From: a virus
Strand: one strand, 5' to 3'
Length of the DNA: 21,347 nt
IMG/VR virus record: IMGVR_UViG_3300020141_000686
Location: 1-21,347 of that record
A program made the position numbers and the translations under genes. The number at the start of each line of letters is the position of its first letter. Positions within the stretch are counted from its first letter, which is position 1. Positions 842 through 13,156 of this stretch are shown here, one piece after another. A model generated the notes under the pieces. The model was not told the DNA's origin, did not search any database, and was given only the letters and a program-made list of their open reading frames with translations.

Positions 842-2728
842 TTATTCCAATATATTCGTTTCATCCATAATGGATTTGTTCTTATTTTCAGACAACAATT
901 CCTGTTTTTCTTGTTTGGTTGTCTTGAGATACAAATCTAAATTAGTTAGTTCCTTAGATATATTTTCAAGACTGAAAACTGATCCCCCAGCATACTTGTG
1001 TGTAGGCGATCTATCAGATTTGAAATCTCGATTTATTTCGAGTCTCCCTGTGGGATCTTCTCCGAAAGGATAGTTTTCAGCTTTCTTTTGTCCTTTTTGT
1101 GAGGGACGTTCATAATCGGATTTAGCCTTTTCTTTAAGAGAAGGTGCTTCTGTAGAAGCATCTTTTTCGCCTGCGTCTGCTGTTTCCCCACCTGTTGTAC
1201 CACCTCCAGTTGCAGTCGTTTCACCTTCTTTACCAACCTTTTGAAATGATTTTGCTGGATCATTGCCTTCTTCTTCAATTTGTTTGAAACGATATGATTG
1301 TTTAGAATCATCGACAATATCGTTTTTCAAGTCGTCCATATCGTCAGATGACATATGAAATACGTTGTCATATACCCATTTTTTGCTGAATAACTTATTT
1401 TCAATCATGTCTTTTGCGACACTCACCTTGTCCGACCAAATTGCAACCTTTTCCTTTTCAAATACCGTAGAAGGATTGGTCAATTCCAAACTAAAATCTA
1501 CCAAACTTGCATCTTTATATCCTTGAGCATACAAATGAACGATTCCAATTTTAGTCAATTCACTAATAATAATACGTTGAATACGTTCAATTGTACGAGA
1601 GAAACGAACGTCTTCTTGTGCTAATGTAGCTTTACCGCTCAAATCCTCATCGTAACTCAAAAATGCCTTGGGAATCTTAAGAGCTGCCATCATCTTCCTA
1701 CGAAGATATTCAATGTCGTCGATACCGGTAAATTCCATACCAGCAAGAGGTTGAATATCAGTTCCACTATCGCCACCACGTACAGGCAAGTAAAAGTCTT
1801 CAACCATGTTCTGTAGATTGAATCTGAGATTGTAATCTCCAGTCTTTTCATCAATATACGGAATCTTCTTGGTCTTAGCGATCAACTTTTCCATATAAGA
1901 GTCAATTTCGTTTGGCGGGATATTACCAACGTCGATTTTGAATACTCTTTTTTCAGGAGCACGCATAATACGATGAATCAACATTGCGTCTTCCATCAAA
2001 CTCAATTGTTTCCATACACGACGAGCGCCTTCTAACATACTTTTACCATATGGTAGAAAATTACTATCACTCAACATACGAAAATGTGCTATTTGATAAT
2101 TTTCCAAATCTTCCACTTTACCACCGTCGGGAAGATTTACTTGAAACTTAACATAGTTCTTATTGTATAAATCACTATTTTCAACACGTGTAACATTATA
2201 AGCACTAATTGGTTCAATCATGTATACACCGTATTCTGGACTAATATACAACCGAAGATAAAAATCTCCGTACTTGCACATGTTACGAACATAACTCCAA
2301 AGGTTAAATTCTATATTCATAATATCATAATACAGATTACGTAAAATCTGTTTGATATTATCATTTGGTGTATTAATTATTAAAATATCACCCAATTCAT
2401 TGCGAGTTAATGATTCGTCTGCATAAATATCCAACGCCGAACTGAGAATCGGATCCATATCCATTGTATCATAATCACGAAACAGTTCTATACGAGCTGC
2501 TTGATAACTGAGTGTGAAATCTCTACTATATTGATTGTATGCAGAAGTACGAATACGATTAAAACGATCTCTGAGCGTATTTCTATCAGTTGCGTATGCT
2601 ACTTCATCGGTGTCAACGACTTTTAATTTTTTACCACCGACATTACGAACAATGACATCGGTAGAAAAAAGTCTCTTAAGTCGAGCAAATAATGATCTGC
2701 TTTTTAAATCTGTTGGTTGATCTGCCAT
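842..2728 (-). CDS. Portal vertex protein, T4 gp20-like
   Basis: 628 residues. Portal proteins form the dodecameric ring at one head vertex, nucleate prohead assembly and act as the DNA channel and terminase dock. The T4 gp20 family pattern is clear: an N-terminal segment with IYADES (residues 101-106), the region HFRMLSDSNFLPYGKS (215-230), EDAMLIHRIMRAPEKRVFKI (246-265) followed by DVGNIPP, then VEDFYLPVRGGDSGTDIQPL (309-328). T4 gp20 is about 524 residues; the excess here is a C-terminal tail from about residue 498, first Gly/Thr/Glu-rich (GGGTTGGE) and then Lys/Glu-rich. The large terminase gene lies 40 bases upstream on the same strand, the usual pairing for headful packaging. The start is the ATG at 2728 (MADQPTDLKS); no Shine-Dalgarno sequence is visible. 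Confidence 0.95.
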   Translation of the reverse strand: MADQPTDLKSRSLFARLKRLFSTDVIVRNVGGKKLKVVDTDEVAYATDRNTLRDRFNRIRTSAYNQYSRDFTLSYQAARIELFRDYDTMDMDPILSSALDIYADESLTRNELGDILIINTPNDNIKQILRNLYYDIMNIEFNLWSYVRNMCKYGDFYLRLYISPEYGVYMIEPISAYNVTRVENSDLYNKNYVKFQVNLPDGGKVEDLENYQIAHFRMLSDSNFLPYGKSMLEGARRVWKQLSLMEDAMLIHRIMRAPEKRVFKIDVGNIPPNEIDSYMEKLIAKTKKIPYIDEKTGDYNLRFNLQNMVEDFYLPVRGGDSGTDIQPLAGMEFTGIDDIEYLRRKMMAALKIPKAFLSYDEDLSGKATLAQEDVRFSRTIERIQRIIISELTKIGIVHLYAQGYKDASLVDFSLELTNPSTVFEKEKVAIWSDKVSVAKDMIENKLFSKKWVYDNVFHMSSDDMDDLKNDIVDDSKQSYRFKQIEEEGNDPAKSFQKVGKEGETTATGGGTTGGETADAGEKDASTEAPSLKEKAKSDYERPSQKGQKKAENYPFGEDPTGRLEINRDFKSDRSPTHKYAGGSVFSLENISKELTNLDLYLKTTKQEKQELLSENKNKSIMDETNILE

Positions 2729-2768: not shown

Positions 2769-4367
2769 TTATAATAACCAAGTTAAACTCTCTTTTTGAT
2801 TGTTTATACCAGTTGGCATTTCCCACGATTGTGGTGCAATAGATTGTTTTGTATTATACACTGGAGATGTTTGATTTTCAGATCTATTAATATTACCAAT
2901 CATATTTTTTGTAAGATCAATTGATTGTTGTCTCAACTTTAAAGCAGTGTCTCGTACCCACAATCCAATAGCAAATGCCATTACTAAATCGTCATTGTAA
3001 TTCCTCATTGCTTCAGCCTTACCATTATTCCATATGAATGTATACAATTCATCTATCAATCGAGTCGATTGAATATTAATAGATTTTTCACGCATATAAC
3101 TTTCTAACCGTGAAATAATCAACTGTCTAGTAACCGAAGTCGTAGTAAATCCAGGCGTCATTTTCTTCTCTGATGAATGTATTCGGTTGCTCATTTGATG
3201 TTCAACATCCACATACTTTAGATCAGCACTACTATAAAATAAATTAGGATACTTACGATCCAATGCCTGTTGAATTGTACCCCAACCAATGTTAAGATTT
3301 TCAATAACTAATAAAGCGTTATTATATTCAGTTGCTACATTCACTAACAAGTTACCATAATCTTTCGTGCCAATTTGACTTTTATATTCAGCAACTTGAG
3401 TAAAACTTTCTACATCGATAACATGAAATGAGCTATAGTCAGCACCGTCACCACGAGCAACGTCAGCACAAACCAAATATGATCTAGTGTAATCTGGATA
3501 TTCCCACAGCCATAGTGCTTTATCCATTCCTCTGGTTTCAATTGGATCACGTACCATCGACTGTTTATAAAAATCAAGTATTGGAACATCTACAACTGTA
3601 TTACCGGATGTTGCAAAATCACAATCACATTCCTGCGCAGCCATCTTTGGTCCAAGAAGTTTTGTTTGTTCATCTCGCCAAACTTGGTTTCGTTCTGGAT
3701 GAAGAGACCACGGCAACCGAATAGTATGAAACTTATTCTTTTTTGCATCCGCTTCTACCCATGTTTTATGAAAGAAATTACCCACACCGTTTGGAGTAGA
3801 TAAAACAATTGCTTTACCTCCAGTTGAAAGTGTAGATTGTGCAGATGTCCAAATTTCATCAATGTTATCAATAAACGCAGCTTCGTCTATGATCAACATT
3901 GACAGTGCAGCAGAACGACCAGCTGTACCAGATGATGATACAGCTTTAATTTGTGATCCATTTTTAAGACGCAATGATAATCGATTATCTTCTACACACG
4001 GAACTTTCAACCAGCTTGGAAGATTGTCATTTGCAAAACGTACACGGGTAACAATTTCTTTTGATGTTTCTTGTGTAATACTAATACACAGAATATTTTT
4101 ATCGCTGTTAAATATCATCATCCATAAACTATAAGCACTACTCAATGTAGTAATACCCAACTGACGACTTTTGAGGATTATGTTATAATCATGATCAATT
4201 ATTTCTTGTAATGATTTATCCTGAAATGGATATAGTTCAAAAGGAATAGTTCCACGTTTAGGATGTTGAATCTTAACGTACTTCTTCATGAAATACATCG
4301 GATTTTCAAGACACTTTTTATATTCTGACTTGATAATGTCTCTCAAGGATTTCTGATCATTCGACAT
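2769..4367 (-). CDS. Terminase large subunit (packaging ATPase and nuclease), T4 gp17-like
   Basis: 532 residues. It would cut concatemeric phage DNA and pump it through the portal. The N-terminal ATPase shows the P-loop KSRQLGITT (66-74), Walker B LIIDEAA with D161 and catalytic E162, and the coupling motif STPNG (190-194). The C-terminal RNase H-fold nuclease shows acidic residues D302 (VCADVARGD), E356 (LVIENLN) and D459/D460 (YNDDLVMAFA). The P-loop lacks the usual Lys before Ser/Thr; K66 at the start of the loop probably replaces it, as described for lambda gpA. The last residues are ESLTWLL. The ATG at 4367 overlaps the end of the upstream zinc-finger gene by 11 bases, suggesting translational coupling. 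A GGAG stands 10 bases before the ATG, one of the few Shine-Dalgarno-like sites here. Confidence 0.96.
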   Translation of the reverse strand: MSNDQKSLRDIIKSEYKKCLENPMYFMKKYVKIQHPKRGTIPFELYPFQDKSLQEIIDHDYNIILKSRQLGITTLSSAYSLWMMIFNSDKNILCISITQETSKEIVTRVRFANDNLPSWLKVPCVEDNRLSLRLKNGSQIKAVSSSGTAGRSAALSMLIIDEAAFIDNIDEIWTSAQSTLSTGGKAIVLSTPNGVGNFFHKTWVEADAKKNKFHTIRLPWSLHPERNQVWRDEQTKLLGPKMAAQECDCDFATSGNTVVDVPILDFYKQSMVRDPIETRGMDKALWLWEYPDYTRSYLVCADVARGDGADYSSFHVIDVESFTQVAEYKSQIGTKDYGNLLVNVATEYNNALLVIENLNIGWGTIQQALDRKYPNLFYSSADLKYVDVEHQMSNRIHSSEKKMTPGFTTTSVTRQLIISRLESYMREKSINIQSTRLIDELYTFIWNNGKAEAMRNYNDDLVMAFAIGLWVRDTALKLRQQSIDLTKNMIGNINRSENQTSPVYNTKQSIAPQSWEMPTGINNQKESLTWLL

Positions 4368-4978: not shown

Positions 4979-4986
4979 GATTTATA
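4979..4986 (-). promoter_or_regulatory. Possible T4-type late promoter box (TATAAATC)
   Basis: Coding-strand TATAAATC matches 7 of 8 positions of the T4 late box and ends 13 bases before the ATG at 4965. The box overlaps the stop codon of the flavoprotein gene. It would drive the zinc-finger, terminase and portal genes as a late packaging unit. The assignment rests only on sequence and spacing. Confidence 0.35.
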
Positions 4987-5737
4987 CTTCGAATGTATTA
5001 TTAAATACCGTGACAGCTTTTGAATATGATTTTTTTGTTTCATCTTTAGCATCATCCGTGTATTGCCAATTCCAAAACAATTCATTTGGAGTTTTAAATC
5101 CATAAAATTCTAACATTTGTTTTTGAGTACTGATAACATTCTTGCCATTCCAATTTTGTCCTATCGCAATAACACCCACATCAATGTTTTTTATAATATT
5201 GGACTCCCCCAATGTTGTATGACGATTTTCCAACCATGTTAAACGTTCAATCAATTTTTGATGAATGCTATTGGTTTGACCCCAACGAATTGACGTAAAA
5301 AACACAACAGTATCGCTTTCAAACAATGGTTTAGTTATCTTCCAAAGTTCATCTGATTTATTATTGATACTCGCCCAACACCGGTGATTACCGGTGGGGT
5401 TTTTTTCTTTATCTTTTAATGCAGCATCTTTTAGTCCACAATGATTTCCCCATTTAGATGATACGTTACCCTCACATGCGGCAATATTCAACTTACTCAC
5501 GTCAATAAATTCACACTTATCCGTACCCAAACGATCAGCCACCAACTTTGCAAGTTGTGTAGATTTAGCTTCATCATCTTTATGACCATCCCATCTATTT
5601 GATGTAGCAATCAATAATACCTTTTTCTTGGTTTGAAGATATTTGACGGTGTTATCAAGACGTAGTGAATTTTTCTCCATATATTGTTCACTAGAACTTG
5701 AAGCAGCTTCAACAAGAAAATCAGTTAATTTTACCAT
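4982..5737 (-). CDS. Flavodoxin-fold (FMN reductase-like) protein with a capsid-targeting-like N-terminus
   Basis: 251 residues. Residues 38-70 (KKVLLIATSNRWDGHKDDEA and on) resemble the first strand and phosphate-binding loop of NADPH-dependent FMN reductases and flavodoxins. Residues 143-166 (TVVFFTSIRWGQTNSIHQKL then IERL) resemble the second flavin-contacting loop, usually written P-x-Y-x-x-x-x-x-x-LK-x-x-x-DR. Residues 186-196 form another strand. Cysteines C88, C100 and C120 lie between the two loops and might bind metal or act in redox chemistry. The first eleven residues, MVKLTDFLVEA, align with the T4 internal-protein capsid-targeting peptide (MKTYQEFIAEA), including an L-V-E site that fits the T4 prohead protease rule (L/I)-x-E. 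A Ser-rich linker follows. The gene sits beside the packaging genes. The fold is fairly secure; substrate and partner are unknown and packaging is inference. Confidence 0.8.
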   Translation of the reverse strand: MVKLTDFLVEAASSSSEQYMEKNSLRLDNTVKYLQTKKKVLLIATSNRWDGHKDDEAKSTQLAKLVADRLGTDKCEFIDVSKLNIAACEGNVSSKWGNHCGLKDAALKDKEKNPTGNHRCWASINNKSDELWKITKPLFESDTVVFFTSIRWGQTNSIHQKLIERLTWLENRHTTLGESNIIKNIDVGVIAIGQNWNGKNVISTQKQMLEFYGFKTPNELFWNWQYTDDAKDETKKSYSKAVTVFNNTFEV

Positions 5738-5757
5738 ATTGTCTTATAAATATTGTC
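5736..5757. repeat. Short direct repeat (ATATTGTC, two copies) over a start codon
   Basis: ATATTGTC occurs at 5736-5743 and again at 5750-5757 on the plus strand, 14 bases apart. The first copy overlaps the flavoprotein start codon. It could be a tandem operator half-site or chance in AT-rich DNA. Confidence 0.4.
5739..5756 (-). promoter_or_regulatory. Leader element shared with the gene starting at 17912; possible promoter
   Basis: Coding-strand ACAATATTTATAAGACAA lies directly before the ATG at 5737. A near copy, ACAATACTTATAGACAA, precedes the ATG at 17912: 16 positions match, with one substitution and one deleted base. Two otherwise unrelated genes sharing this leader suggests a promoter or other initiation signal. 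The TATAA ends so close to the ATG that a transcript from it would be leaderless or nearly so. Confidence 0.35.
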
Positions 5758-8105: not shown

Positions 8106-11100
8106 TCATTGGAAATTAATACGTGAAAACCCATTGTCTTTGATTATCTCCAGTCGAGTATCAACCATATCCTTCAATACATCCAAGTGACTTACGATCC
8201 ATACAAAGTCAAAGTTACTCTTCAAAAACGAGAATAAATTAGACATAGCAGATAGATGATCACTATCAGCACATCCGAATCCTTCATCAATCGCAATAAA
8301 GTTAGGACGGGGTAAATTCGATACATTAATCAATGCAACTCTAATTGCCAATGAACTTACAAACTTTTCAAGTCCACTTGACAATTCCAATGGCCACTTT
8401 TTATCTTCATACACAATATAAGTCATTATGTTCTTTCCATCGGTATGAAATGATACGGTAAACTCTACAACCTGATTGAGAATGTTATTGACCTGTGCCT
8501 CGATCCCAGGCAACGCTTTAGAGATGATTTGATACTGCAATCCATCTCTAGACACTGCATCAACATAATATGTGTAGGCATTATAAATCTTCTCAGTCTC
8601 CTTCACTTCAACAATTTTGGCTTCAATTTGAGACTTCTGATAATTCCAATTGTTGATTTTGCTCTTAGTATCCGTGATGTTAGAGTTAACATTACGAATG
8701 TTAAAGTCAATATTTTTAAGGTTTGATTTAATATCATCAATTACCTTTTGAACCGTAAAATTGGATTCAATAGCGTCCTTTGCATTATAATATTCTTTGA
8801 TCTTGGTATTGATTGATTCCAAAAAATTCTTTTCCTTAACAATCGTATTCTCGCGTTGTAATTGAAGATTTTCAAGATTAGAAATATTCTTGGTCAACGT
8901 CGATAGACTGTTAACAAGGTTTCTATACTCCTGATATTGATTTGCAATAATCTCAACGACACTCAACTTGTTTTTTACGCCATTCAATTTTTCAATCAAA
9001 CCTTTAACGTCAATCTTATCATTTTCAAGATCTTCTTTGGTCTTGATTGCATCTTGAACAAAAACGTTATTAACACAGAAAGTACAATTTGGATCATACT
9101 TGTGATTTTCAAGTTTTTTCAACTTGTCCAACTTGGTTGTAACGATCAACTTTTTACGTTCCAACTGACCTTCAATATTAGACGCTTCCAACTTCAAAGT
9201 ATTATACTCTGAATACTTGGACTCGATATCATCAGACTTGAACTTTTCAACCTTATCATTAATTGGTTTAATATCATTATTTAACTTTTCAATGTTCGGA
9301 ATTTCAGTGTCATACTTTAACTGTTCACTAACGATCTTTTTATCGGTGTTAATACGTTGTGACTCTAATCCAGAAACGTCAGTTGTGGTGATATTAATCT
9401 TGATCAACTGTTTGGTTGTATCCTCAATCTTTTCGTTTTCAACATCACGACTTTCCATTAACGTCTTTAGTTCGTCATCTTTTAAACGAATTACAGACTC
9501 AGCATTTGTAATGTTGGTCGTCAAAGTTTCCAACTCTACGTTATAGTCAACCTTAGCAAAGTTCTTCATCACAACTGCCCATTCACGCATTTTATCATTG
9601 GCCAAACCATGCAATTTATCAAAAATGGTAAGTCCCATAAATTGTGCCAATAGATCCTTACGTTCACTCTGACCAAGATCAATAAACGAACCAGTTTTAC
9701 TGTTTTGAATACTCAATACGGTAAGAATAAAATCATCATATGTACCGACATAGTCTCTGATAAGATCATTTGTATTACGACGAGCTTCTCCATTAAGTTC
9801 AATTACTTGACCATTCTCTTCTTTCCAAAACTTGACATCTACCTTTACACTTCCCTTTTTGTCAGCAACTCCAATACGTTCAATGAAATAATTGATCTTA
9901 TCAATTTCAAAATTGAACTTACAACGAAATGACATTTTTTGTGTATTCATAACGTGAATAGCTTTAAATGCGCGATCACATTTATCAAAAATACAAAATG
10001 ACAATGCTGAAAGAATACTAGATTTGCCACTTGCGTTTGAAGCAAATAAACCCACAACATCCTTCATTTTACTAAAATCAATTACGTTACCTTCACCGTA
10101 ACTGAACATATTGTCAAATTCAAACCGCTTCGGCTTCCATCGAATATTCTTAGCAGTAAGATCTTTTACAATCAAGTCATTCAGTTCGGTGTTGATCTTT
10201 TCAACTTCTTTAATAAGAAGATCCGGGATATTTGTGTGTTTATCCTGAAGATATTCTGAAATCAACTTGTTTTGATATGTAATGTTGGATAGTCCATGTA
10301 CATTCAAATTAGGTACAGTCGAATTAGTCAAACTAGAAATCAAATTATCAACTCGTAGATAATTGATGTCGATCAATTCAGTGTGTTTACGTATCTCTGA
10401 TATGATTGATTTCATTTCAGATGCAACCGTTTCCAGTGACTTAACACGTAGAGTTGTTTTCTTTGGAATCGTTGTTAAATCCGTGATCAACTTTCCATTA
10501 TCAACTTCAACAGTAAAATACCCATATTCGTTTTTAACTTCAACGTGTTTAAACTTAAGAGTTTTTAGATCCCAATATACAAATCCGTGACCACGTAGTT
10601 CTTCACCATGATTCTGTTGAATCAACGAACCACAATAAACAACCACAGGTTTACGTACATTGTTATCATCGGTTCTATAGGTCTGAAGAACTTGATGACG
10701 ATGAATGTCACCAAGCAAAATGATTTGATGTCCATCAAACAGTTCGTTTTTGGTGTTACTACTGACCTTATAGCCAATATCAGTTACAGCACTATCAACT
10801 GGTCCATGATATAATCCAATACAATAAGTAGCGTTGTTAACATACGTCTTTGGAATATTCTCAAATTTTATATAATTCTCAGGAGAGTGTTCGTCGAATA
10901 CTGAAAAGTTATTAAACAAAATATCCCCTAGAAGGTATACTCCGGTGTCCTTTAGGTAAAACAAATTTGGATGTTTGATTGCATTGACGATTGGACTCAA
11001 ACTATCCATCCTATTTTTATTAGTCAATGTTGCGTCATGATTACCAGCTGTGAGGACAGTTGGACGGATATCAGCCAACCTCTTCAAAAATTGGGACGCA

Positions 11101-11315
11101 ATTTCAACGCATTCGGGACTCAGATCGCTTTTGTTATGAAAAACGTCTCCAACTACACAAACGACAGTTGACAGTGGTGTCTTGTCAATTGTCTTATATA
11201 GATTTTCAAATACCTCACGATATTCAATATGACGTTTAGTCAACAGAATGTGAATATCTGCGATGTGGATAATATTGGTGAAGTTTGATACTTCACATGT
11301 AAGTTTTGTAACCAT
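8106..11315 (-). CDS. Fused SbcD-SbcC (Mre11-Rad50) recombination nuclease, T4 gp47-gp46 equivalent
   Basis: 1069 residues from the ATG at 11315; the frame also has a TTG three codons upstream at 11324. The N-terminal third is a metallophosphoesterase nuclease of the Mre11/SbcD type: D20-x-H22, GDVFH (56-60), GNHD (91-94), YHG with H170, and GDIHRHQ (202-208). From about residue 390 it becomes a Rad50/SbcC ATPase: Walker A GLFASNASGKSS (422-433), Q-loop near Q537, coiled coils about 600-740 and 755-910 flanking the zinc hook C744-T-F-C747, ABC signature LSSGLEKF (978-985), Walker B FIAIDE (1006-1011) and H-loop SHLD (1042-1045). In T4, E. coli and most organisms these are two genes. The protein would resect DNA ends for recombination-dependent replication. 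The ATG lies five bases after the primase stop codon, so the two are likely co-translated. Confidence 0.96.
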   Translation of the reverse strand: MVTKLTCEVSNFTNIIHIADIHILLTKRHIEYREVFENLYKTIDKTPLSTVVCVVGDVFHNKSDLSPECVEIASQFLKRLADIRPTVLTAGNHDATLTNKNRMDSLSPIVNAIKHPNLFYLKDTGVYLLGDILFNNFSVFDEHSPENYIKFENIPKTYVNNATYCIGLYHGPVDSAVTDIGYKVSSNTKNELFDGHQIILLGDIHRHQVLQTYRTDDNNVRKPVVVYCGSLIQQNHGEELRGHGFVYWDLKTLKFKHVEVKNEYGYFTVEVDNGKLITDLTTIPKKTTLRVKSLETVASEMKSIISEIRKHTELIDINYLRVDNLISSLTNSTVPNLNVHGLSNITYQNKLISEYLQDKHTNIPDLLIKEVEKINTELNDLIVKDLTAKNIRWKPKRFEFDNMFSYGEGNVIDFSKMKDVVGLFASNASGKSSILSALSFCIFDKCDRAFKAIHVMNTQKMSFRCKFNFEIDKINYFIERIGVADKKGSVKVDVKFWKEENGQVIELNGEARRNTNDLIRDYVGTYDDFILTVLSIQNSKTGSFIDLGQSERKDLLAQFMGLTIFDKLHGLANDKMREWAVVMKNFAKVDYNVELETLTTNITNAESVIRLKDDELKTLMESRDVENEKIEDTTKQLIKINITTTDVSGLESQRINTDKKIVSEQLKYDTEIPNIEKLNNDIKPINDKVEKFKSDDIESKYSEYNTLKLEASNIEGQLERKKLIVTTKLDKLKKLENHKYDPNCTFCVNNVFVQDAIKTKEDLENDKIDVKGLIEKLNGVKNKLSVVEIIANQYQEYRNLVNSLSTLTKNISNLENLQLQRENTIVKEKNFLESINTKIKEYYNAKDAIESNFTVQKVIDDIKSNLKNIDFNIRNVNSNITDTKSKINNWNYQKSQIEAKIVEVKETEKIYNAYTYYVDAVSRDGLQYQIISKALPGIEAQVNNILNQVVEFTVSFHTDGKNIMTYIVYEDKKWPLELSSGLEKFVSSLAIRVALINVSNLPRPNFIAIDEGFGCADSDHLSAMSNLFSFLKSNFDFVWIVSHLDVLKDMVDTRLEIIKDNGFSRINFQ

Positions 11316-11320
11316 AAAAT

Positions 11321-12283
11321 TCAAATAGATAATTTATTACGAAACAACGATTCAAAATCAAGAACTGGTGTATTATTAATCAATTCCCACGTTTTTATAA
11401 ATCCAAGTTCGGACGGATCTTTTCCATCAAGTTTAACTAACCGTGTGTCAATATTATTTTTCAATAGAAACTCGCTAATTCTAATAGAATCAACCAAAGC
11501 ATCATTATCTAAAACTATGTTGACGTTCTTCACTATATTACAGATCAAAGCGGATTTCAACTTATTTGAAAGTGTTTTTCCGAATAAAGGAATTGCATTG
11601 TTTCTGACTGAGATCGCATCAAATACACCCTCAACCAAAGTTATTGGCTGATTATAATCCACAAACATTTCAAAGCCAATAATATCCTTTGATACAAAAC
11701 TATTGACGTATTTCATTTTGACATCTTCAAATACGCTACGAGTTGAATAGAAATTTAAATGGCCAGACGAATCATACGATGGAATTAAAACTCTACCATG
11801 AAATTGTCCACCATCACAATAACCGATATTATAACGCAATACATCATATTTGGTAATGTTGCGACTTCTGAGGTACTTCAAAGCATGTCGGCCGGTCAAC
11901 GTCAACTCGTCATCATAAAATGACCGATATTCTTTTGGAAGAATAAGTTGTTCAATAATTTCAGATTTCTTTTCTGAAAATATTTCTAAGATTGCACTGA
12001 TGTCATTTTGTGGCAGTTTTCTATAAGACTCGGTGTTTTTATAAATCTGACTTAGATAGTCACCTGATAACCCTAATTTTTTGAATAATGTTTTTAATGA
12101 AGTACCTGACAAACCACATACCCAACAATGATATTTTCCAGTGACCGTATTAATCTCAAGTTTTCTTTTGTAATGTTTACAGATCGGACAAAAATACACA
12201 GCATCAGTCCCCTTACGAATCTTGGCGGACTGCTTTAGTGCTTTATTTAAAATGGTGACAACTTCTGTCTGATACAACAGCAT
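11321..12283 (-). CDS. DNA primase, DnaG/T4 gp61-like
   Basis: 320 residues, close to T4 gp61 (342). It would lay RNA primers for lagging-strand synthesis together with a helicase that is not in this window. An N-terminal zinc-binding domain is shown by C32-x2-C35 and C53-x2-C56 (FCPICKHY and YHCWVCGLSG). A TOPRIM core follows: LVEG with E218-G219, then VLDND with D259 and D261 as metal-binding acidic residues, and the conserved GKDPSELG (287-294). The middle segment GRVLIPSYDSSGHLNFYSTR (163-182) is typical of the DnaG N-terminal catalytic domain. There is no C-terminal helicase domain. The resolvase gene lies 39 bases upstream and the nuclease gene starts five bases downstream. The ATG lies in a predicted hairpin loop (12268-12300). 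Confidence 0.93.
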   Translation of the reverse strand: MLLYQTEVVTILNKALKQSAKIRKGTDAVYFCPICKHYKRKLEINTVTGKYHCWVCGLSGTSLKTLFKKLGLSGDYLSQIYKNTESYRKLPQNDISAILEIFSEKKSEIIEQLILPKEYRSFYDDELTLTGRHALKYLRSRNITKYDVLRYNIGYCDGGQFHGRVLIPSYDSSGHLNFYSTRSVFEDVKMKYVNSFVSKDIIGFEMFVDYNQPITLVEGVFDAISVRNNAIPLFGKTLSNKLKSALICNIVKNVNIVLDNDALVDSIRISEFLLKNNIDTRLVKLDGKDPSELGFIKTWELINNTPVLDFESLFRNKLSI

Positions 12284-13125: not shown

Positions 13126-13156
13126 AATATTAATCTATGTTTTATTATAAATATGA

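Follow-up and report, generated by a model that had tools for sequence, protein, structure and literature searches.

A flavodoxin-fold protein of uncultured T4-like phages carries a putative T4-type capsid-targeting peptide

The window analyzed here is the full 21,347 nt of the virus record IMGVR_UViG_3300020141_000686. Its features relevant to this report are as follows.

4982..5737 (-), flavodoxin-fold FMN-reductase-like protein of 251 aa; ATG at 5737, stop at 4982-4984
5708..5737 (-), capsid-targeting-type peptide MVKLTDFLVE, residues 1-10, assigned from the invariant L4, D6, L8, and E10 and the T4 capsid-targeting sequence (CTS) rules (PMC9026906); predicted prohead-protease cut after E10
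5681..5707 (-), Ser-rich linker (AASSSSE stretch), residues 11-19; variable and of low model confidence
4985..5680 (-), domain common to cellular homologues, residues about 20-251, with TSNR...KST phosphate-loop-like and SIRWGQxN motifs and invariant C88, C100, and C120
5745..5752 (-), promoter-like element TATTTATA, 7 nt upstream of the ATG and kept in many homologues
2769..4367 (-), large terminase; the packaging genes come after the flavoprotein gene
842..2728 (-), T4-type portal protein gp20

The original prediction had placed a gene at 4982-5737, and an ATG-started open reading frame (ORF) lies exactly there, although on the minus strand, which the prediction had left unstated. Both the N-terminus MVKLTDFLVEA and the Ser-rich stretch it described are present in the translation. 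On the coding strand the flavoprotein gene is preceded by genes for an uncharacterized 777-residue protein, an SbcD-SbcC-like fused ORF, and a DnaG-type primase, and is followed by those for a 202-residue uncharacterized protein, the large terminase, and the portal. In the fused ORF an SbcD/Mre11-like metallophosphoesterase and an SbcC/Rad50-like ATPase form a single 1072-residue chain (8106-11324, minus strand) with a matching 1068-residue ORF in the relative G002, whereas T4 gp47 and gp46 are separate proteins. Among cultured phages, Flavobacterium phage immuto (53.5% identity) and Microcystis phage Mel-JY01 have the nearest terminases. The flavoprotein clade consists of uncultured T4-like phages, mostly from freshwater. 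As the whole record is a 21 kb fragment, within which no second tagged gene was found, genome-wide tests were done on relatives.

The protein had been predicted to have flavodoxin/FMN-reductase character, to be checked by profile search and structure prediction. The profile search gave a divided answer: the window protein matched neither FMN_red (PF03358) nor Flavodoxin_2 (PF02525), whereas some homologues gave sub-threshold matches, at most 22.0 bits against a cut-off of 24 for the former and 17.3 against 27 for the latter, the curated Pfam cut-offs being reached by neither the window protein nor its homologues. Nor did the window protein find a useful family match in Pfam, PHROGs, NCBIfam, or PDB sequences. 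The structure prediction was clearer. A model made from viral sequences alone reached no more than pLDDT 66 and gave way to one that included cellular homologues in the alignment (pLDDT 91, pTM 0.88), which has the alpha/beta flavodoxin fold of the flavodoxin-like FMN reductases. Structural alignment to FMN-binding reductases covers residues 36-251, with Z scores of 11.9-15.4 among the matches listed. The best solved match is SP1951 with FMN (2oys; Z 15.4 over 163 residues, rmsd 2.9), followed by RosB (5mji; Z 14.2) and by AzoR and the NQO enzymes (NQO1/2) at about Z 12-13. The predicted fold, together with the sub-threshold matches of the homologues, thus bears out the reductase character. 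Within the domain T45-S46, R48, K58-S59, R151-W152-G153, and the cysteines C88, C100, and C120 are invariant, and the protein may bind FMN.

The N-terminus lies outside the confident part of the model, residues 1-20 being poorly ordered (block means of 53 and 62). For the packaging of T4 IPIII its ten N-terminal residues are enough, positions 4 and 7 acting in targeting and positions 8 and 10 in processing, and the protease gp21 cuts after L/I-x-E (PMC9026906). Direct reading of the T4 sequences confirmed that IPII and IPIII start with MKTYQEFIAEA, as had been stated. The alignment of this peptide with that of the window, claimed to be residue for residue, is indeed ungapped (BLOSUM62 14 over residues 2-11) with identities at F7, E10, and A11, but D6/E and L8/I are only conservative changes. 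The 28 unique clade members aligned in the same register all have M1, L4, D6, L8, and E10, with either F or L at position 7; residues 3, 5, 9, and 12-15 are variable. All 28 therefore have suitable residues at the targeting positions 4 and 7 and L/I-x-E at 8-10, and the fit of L8-V9-E10 to the cleavage rule is upheld for a cut that is itself predicted. Because the invariant or kept positions 4, 7, 8, and 10 are those that matter in T4 IPIII, a targeting reading is favored. At the sequence level the peptide belongs to the T4-type CTS class in every respect but direct proof of cleavage.

All six Leu codons are used at L4 and both Glu codons at E10, indicating that selection acts on the peptide. 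For this reason (the six codons of L4) a conserved DNA element was rejected as the source of the conservation. A true start at Met20 was also rejected, since Met20 is replaced in three members and so is no hidden conserved start.

Orthologues lacking the conserved F-L-x-E N-terminus had been named as grounds for doubting the prediction. Within the window clade 28/28 unique members keep L-x-D-[FL]-L-x-E, but over the wider tree 33 of 39 viral representatives (window included) are tagged and six are not. Viral homologues only 50-65% identical to a cellular one are mostly still tagged, with peptides such as MMKLSNILSEI, MIKLKDLLSEV, MKLLNLIEEID, MRSIKELLLEE, and MGRLADLLLEE, among others; the atypical tags of L168, L239, L242, and L243 were counted as tags by our own judgement. 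The untagged lineages are L152, L166, L169, L178, L179, and L181. Tagged viral proteins cluster in the tree without forming one clade (6 label changes versus 21 expected by shuffling), the untagged L178, L179, and L181 form a subclade nested within a tagged clade, and the tag type switches between sister proteins. Untagged flavoproteins of other phages are also found outside head clusters. That of L152 sits next to the capsid gene in a phage with an S77 protease. In L152 (5986-6735) and L151 the untagged flavoprotein is directly downstream of the capsid gene and has a C-terminal extension, ILNKTAIHEIKLSIKKLLKF, which might be a C-terminal targeting tail.

Scanning genome contigs yielded 36 cellular homologues, with identities of 52-63%, from Sulfurovum, Patescibacteria, archaea, and others. 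None of them (0/36) has the tag; most of the alignments start at phage residue 20-33, and proteins with a judgeable start codon start at about phage residue 20-27. Judged by these alignments, the first ten residues are a phage-only addition separable from the body. The active-site-like residues are strictly kept between the phage proteins and the free-living cellular homologues. No shared functional context was found among the neighbors of the cellular homologues, and no flavoprotein relatives were detectable among annotated phage genomes. Three cellular homologues (L111, L112, and L113) lie in SR1/Gracilibacteria-type bins; read with table 11 they contain in-frame stops, which recoding of TGA would be expected to produce.

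The scan of N-termini that had been proposed for the full phage genome was run on relatives and turned up the tag on further, unrelated proteins, both effector-like ones and members of the head cluster. In G026 five adjoining unrelated proteins start MIRLGDILNEI, MIKLTDILKEV, MIKLADLISEI (the flavoprotein), MIKLIDILKEV, and MIKLSNILKEV, and in G004 the flavoprotein has tagged genes on both sides (MIRLNNILSEV and MISLTDILNEV). The flavoprotein of the sister lineage G043 starts MNLQENIIRIRQMM and its neighbors start likewise, MNLHENINRIKEMM and MNLQETIRRVLRED; this tag cross-matches 7/318 proteins of G043 itself and two in G001, with no matches in the remaining eight records. Six neighbors of the L166 flavoprotein (G049) start like MKHIKLFEEFVNE. 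In L166 (1525-3072) the flavodoxin domain is fused upstream of a second domain that starts MKHIKLFEQFVKES, a tag inside the polypeptide that resembles those of the six neighboring proteins. The tag type goes with the phage rather than with the enzyme body. The co-tagged proteins include an ADP-ribosyltransferase domain (ART-PolyVal, 35.2 bits versus a cut-off of 31.2) and a second, weaker one, an NT5C nucleotidase, a GNAT-lysozyme fusion, a scaffold (MSDLLKEALADAK), and a 167-residue protein, MISLVKLLSEQ, whose gene is just upstream of the protease gene.

Three further observations concern tag-like N-termini. In immuto (L148, 101023-138585) an island of tagged proteins upstream of terL includes MENFDLKKFLVENKLT, MENTFDLKKFLVENKLT, MADNFNLRSFLTENKLT (annotated PduO), and an NT5C nucleotidase. 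A second tag dialect, MNLQENIxRIKEMMG, is found on several unrelated large-phage proteins (G043 L248-L257; L179), and uncharacterized GP88-family proteins have tag-like N-termini (MKLTELKQLIKET and MKLIDILLES; L137 3452-4591 and L317 10265-11407).

To count such N-termini, a loose motif, [hydrophobic][LIVM]xE, separated poorly from background (9 versus 5.7; 10 versus 5.3), whereas also requiring a hydrophobic residue at position 4 separated the tags, with a background rate of 1-2% per N-terminus. The fixed tag pattern was found 9 times versus 1.5 expected in G007 (P 2e-5) and 7 versus 1.0 in G008, both close relatives of the window and both counts including the flavoprotein, and 17 times versus 3.7 expected in the cultured phage immuto (P 3e-7). 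The tagged N-termini of immuto are concentrated in the late and head region (12/42, versus 5/153 elsewhere; Fisher P 7e-6). A profile made from flavoprotein tags only found 15 other N-termini in ten records versus 2.1 expected. Enrichment with the own flavoprotein tag was weak or absent in G028 and G032, and in G002 no other N-terminus passed a strict 99.9% match to the tag of its flavoprotein.

These counts bear on two alternatives. Three hydrophobic residues and a Glu arise easily at the background rate given above, and the motif could be a chance amphipathic helix inherited in one clade with no sorting role; its invariance in all 28 unique sequences despite differing codons, its recurrence in distant lineages, and enrichment P values from 2e-5 (G007) to 3e-7 (immuto) make this very improbable. 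The protein could also be an ordinary cytosolic auxiliary metabolic enzyme that is never packaged and that uses its N-terminal helix to dock onto a partner from the phage or the host. The enzyme works without the tag, since untagged homologues exist in phages and cells, and N-terminal amphipathic helices commonly serve as docking elements. We nevertheless consider this unlikely: the same peptide is on many unrelated proteins and in immuto clusters in the head region and the late region next to it, the tag type tracks the phage and not the enzyme body, and the invariance of L8 and E10 fits protease processing better than docking.

Processing would require a prohead protease. The window ends before the protease gene would lie, and a gp21-type S77 protease was found in 19/20 close records and in 14/33 more distant or fragmentary records. 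Several large tagged records (G027, G032, and G043) gave no detectable S77 protease and therefore may use a diverged one. Given the tagged phages in which no S77 protease was detected, and the six untagged viral lineages, not every member of the family would be packaged. The capsid proteins of the relatives and of immuto have an invariant Glu in sites like LLDE-A, LIKE-A, LISE-A, and LINE-A just before the conserved core, where T4 gp23 has FLTE-A; by this analogy the conserved hydrophobic-x-E site would be the one cut by the protease.

The timing of expression is suggested by the element upstream of the gene. In many homologues TATTTATA is found 3-7 nt upstream of the start codon. The window holds only three copies (5745-5752, 13146-13153, and 802-809), all on the minus, coding strand and two of them shortly before start codons. 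In G002 the element precedes only 8/147 genes, and four of these, in addition to the flavoprotein gene, lie around the head genes in the first 15 kb. It looks like a late promoter, possibly one giving nearly leaderless transcripts.

Taken together, the loading of the protein into the head, as originally proposed, is supported by a tag that is present in 28/28 clade members, absent from cellular homologues, and recurrent on unrelated proteins, and by the protease in 19/20 close records. We assign a probability of about 0.7 to the reading that the flavoprotein is a CTS-targeted, cleaved internal head protein injected with the DNA as a redox enzyme; that it works like T4 CTS cargo is well supported by sequence. 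Since its tag is of the kind that T4 uses for head loading, the enzyme is probably in the particle and delivered with the viral DNA. We infer a course that runs from late expression through cleavage, packaging, and injection to FMN-dependent action on a host target. A phage-borne FMN-dependent reductase-like enzyme would have acquired a T4-type capsid-targeting sequence and would be made late, together with the head genes. Through its ten N-terminal residues it would dock in the core of the prohead, the gp21-type protease would cut after E10 (L-V-E|A), and the folded flavoprotein would stay inside the head. It would enter the host with the DNA, along with similarly tagged cargo such as ADP-ribosyltransferases, and there reduce a quinone, flavin, or other acceptor, plausibly buffering redox stress or altering a host or defense target at once.

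Injection takes a further step than head entry, because cleaved structural proteins of T4 carry the same type of tag. The gp24 N-terminus, MAKINELLRES, read from the T4 sequence, is as close to the window tag as is that of IPIII, and gp22 starts MLKEQLIAEA. As gp24 is a gp21-cleaved shell (vertex) protein, peptides of this type are not confined to injected proteins, and the flavoprotein could enter the prohead by its tag, remain as a minor head or core component like gp24 and gp22, and never be injected, the fold serving structure or assembly redox chemistry. Against this stand the strict conservation of the active-site-like residues between phage and free-living cellular homologues, the effector-like enzymes among the co-tagged proteins, and the untagged versions in other phages outside head clusters, and we judge it quite unlikely.

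The mechanism of the favored reading, an injected head cargo, is known from T4; what looks new is that the cargo is a redox flavoprotein and that the tag is so widely used. Searches of the open-access literature turned up no account of head cargo that is a flavodoxin-type enzyme, and broad surveys mention none, which is weak evidence for novelty. A search for virion proteomics of phages of the flavoprotein family, including via ADP-ribosyltransferase homologues in GAP32 and CBB, found none. A wider reading, to which we give even odds, is that a general system for head cargo exists in aquatic T4-like phages resembling immuto, whereby lineage-dialect tags on many unrelated enzymes (flavin reductase, ADP-ribosyltransferases, and nucleotidase) lead to their being packed, trimmed, and injected as a set, with the flavoprotein the first redox enzyme in such a payload. 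If so, the T4 capsid-targeting sequence would be a general sorting code for enzyme loading, beyond three small proteins, injected cargo could be read from genome sequence by its N-terminal tag, redox chemistry would be among the first acts of infection, and new tag variants would be available for loading proteins into the capsids of other phages.

Among known proteins, the quinone and azo reductases of the Flavodoxin_2/FMN_red group (SP1951, RosB, AzoR, and NQO1/2) resemble the window protein in predicted fold over residues 36-251, but identity to them is about 10-17%, scores are below the Pfam gathering values, and the window protein has a long insert with the three invariant cysteines (C88, C100, and C120). 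The likeness to T4 IPII and IPIII lies in the ten-residue peptide with a hydrophobic or aromatic residue at positions 4 and 7, L/I at 8, E10, and Ala11, and in a phage with a gp20 portal and, in relatives, a gp21-type protease. The tag letters outside those positions differ, and the putative cargo here is a conserved enzyme with cellular homologues whereas theirs are small and phage-specific. T4 Alt, a head-packaged ADP-ribosyltransferase of a kind thought to be widespread in myoviruses (PMC9503650), is processed at both ends (PMC9026906). Like the proposed cargo, Alt is an enzyme carried in the head and injected, and related phages of the flavoprotein family also have a tagged ADP-ribosyltransferase; the flavoprotein differs in fold and chemistry. 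The gp24 propeptide is the closest T4 N-terminus in pattern (I4, L7, L8, E10, and S11), although gp24 is a shell protein and not an injected cargo.
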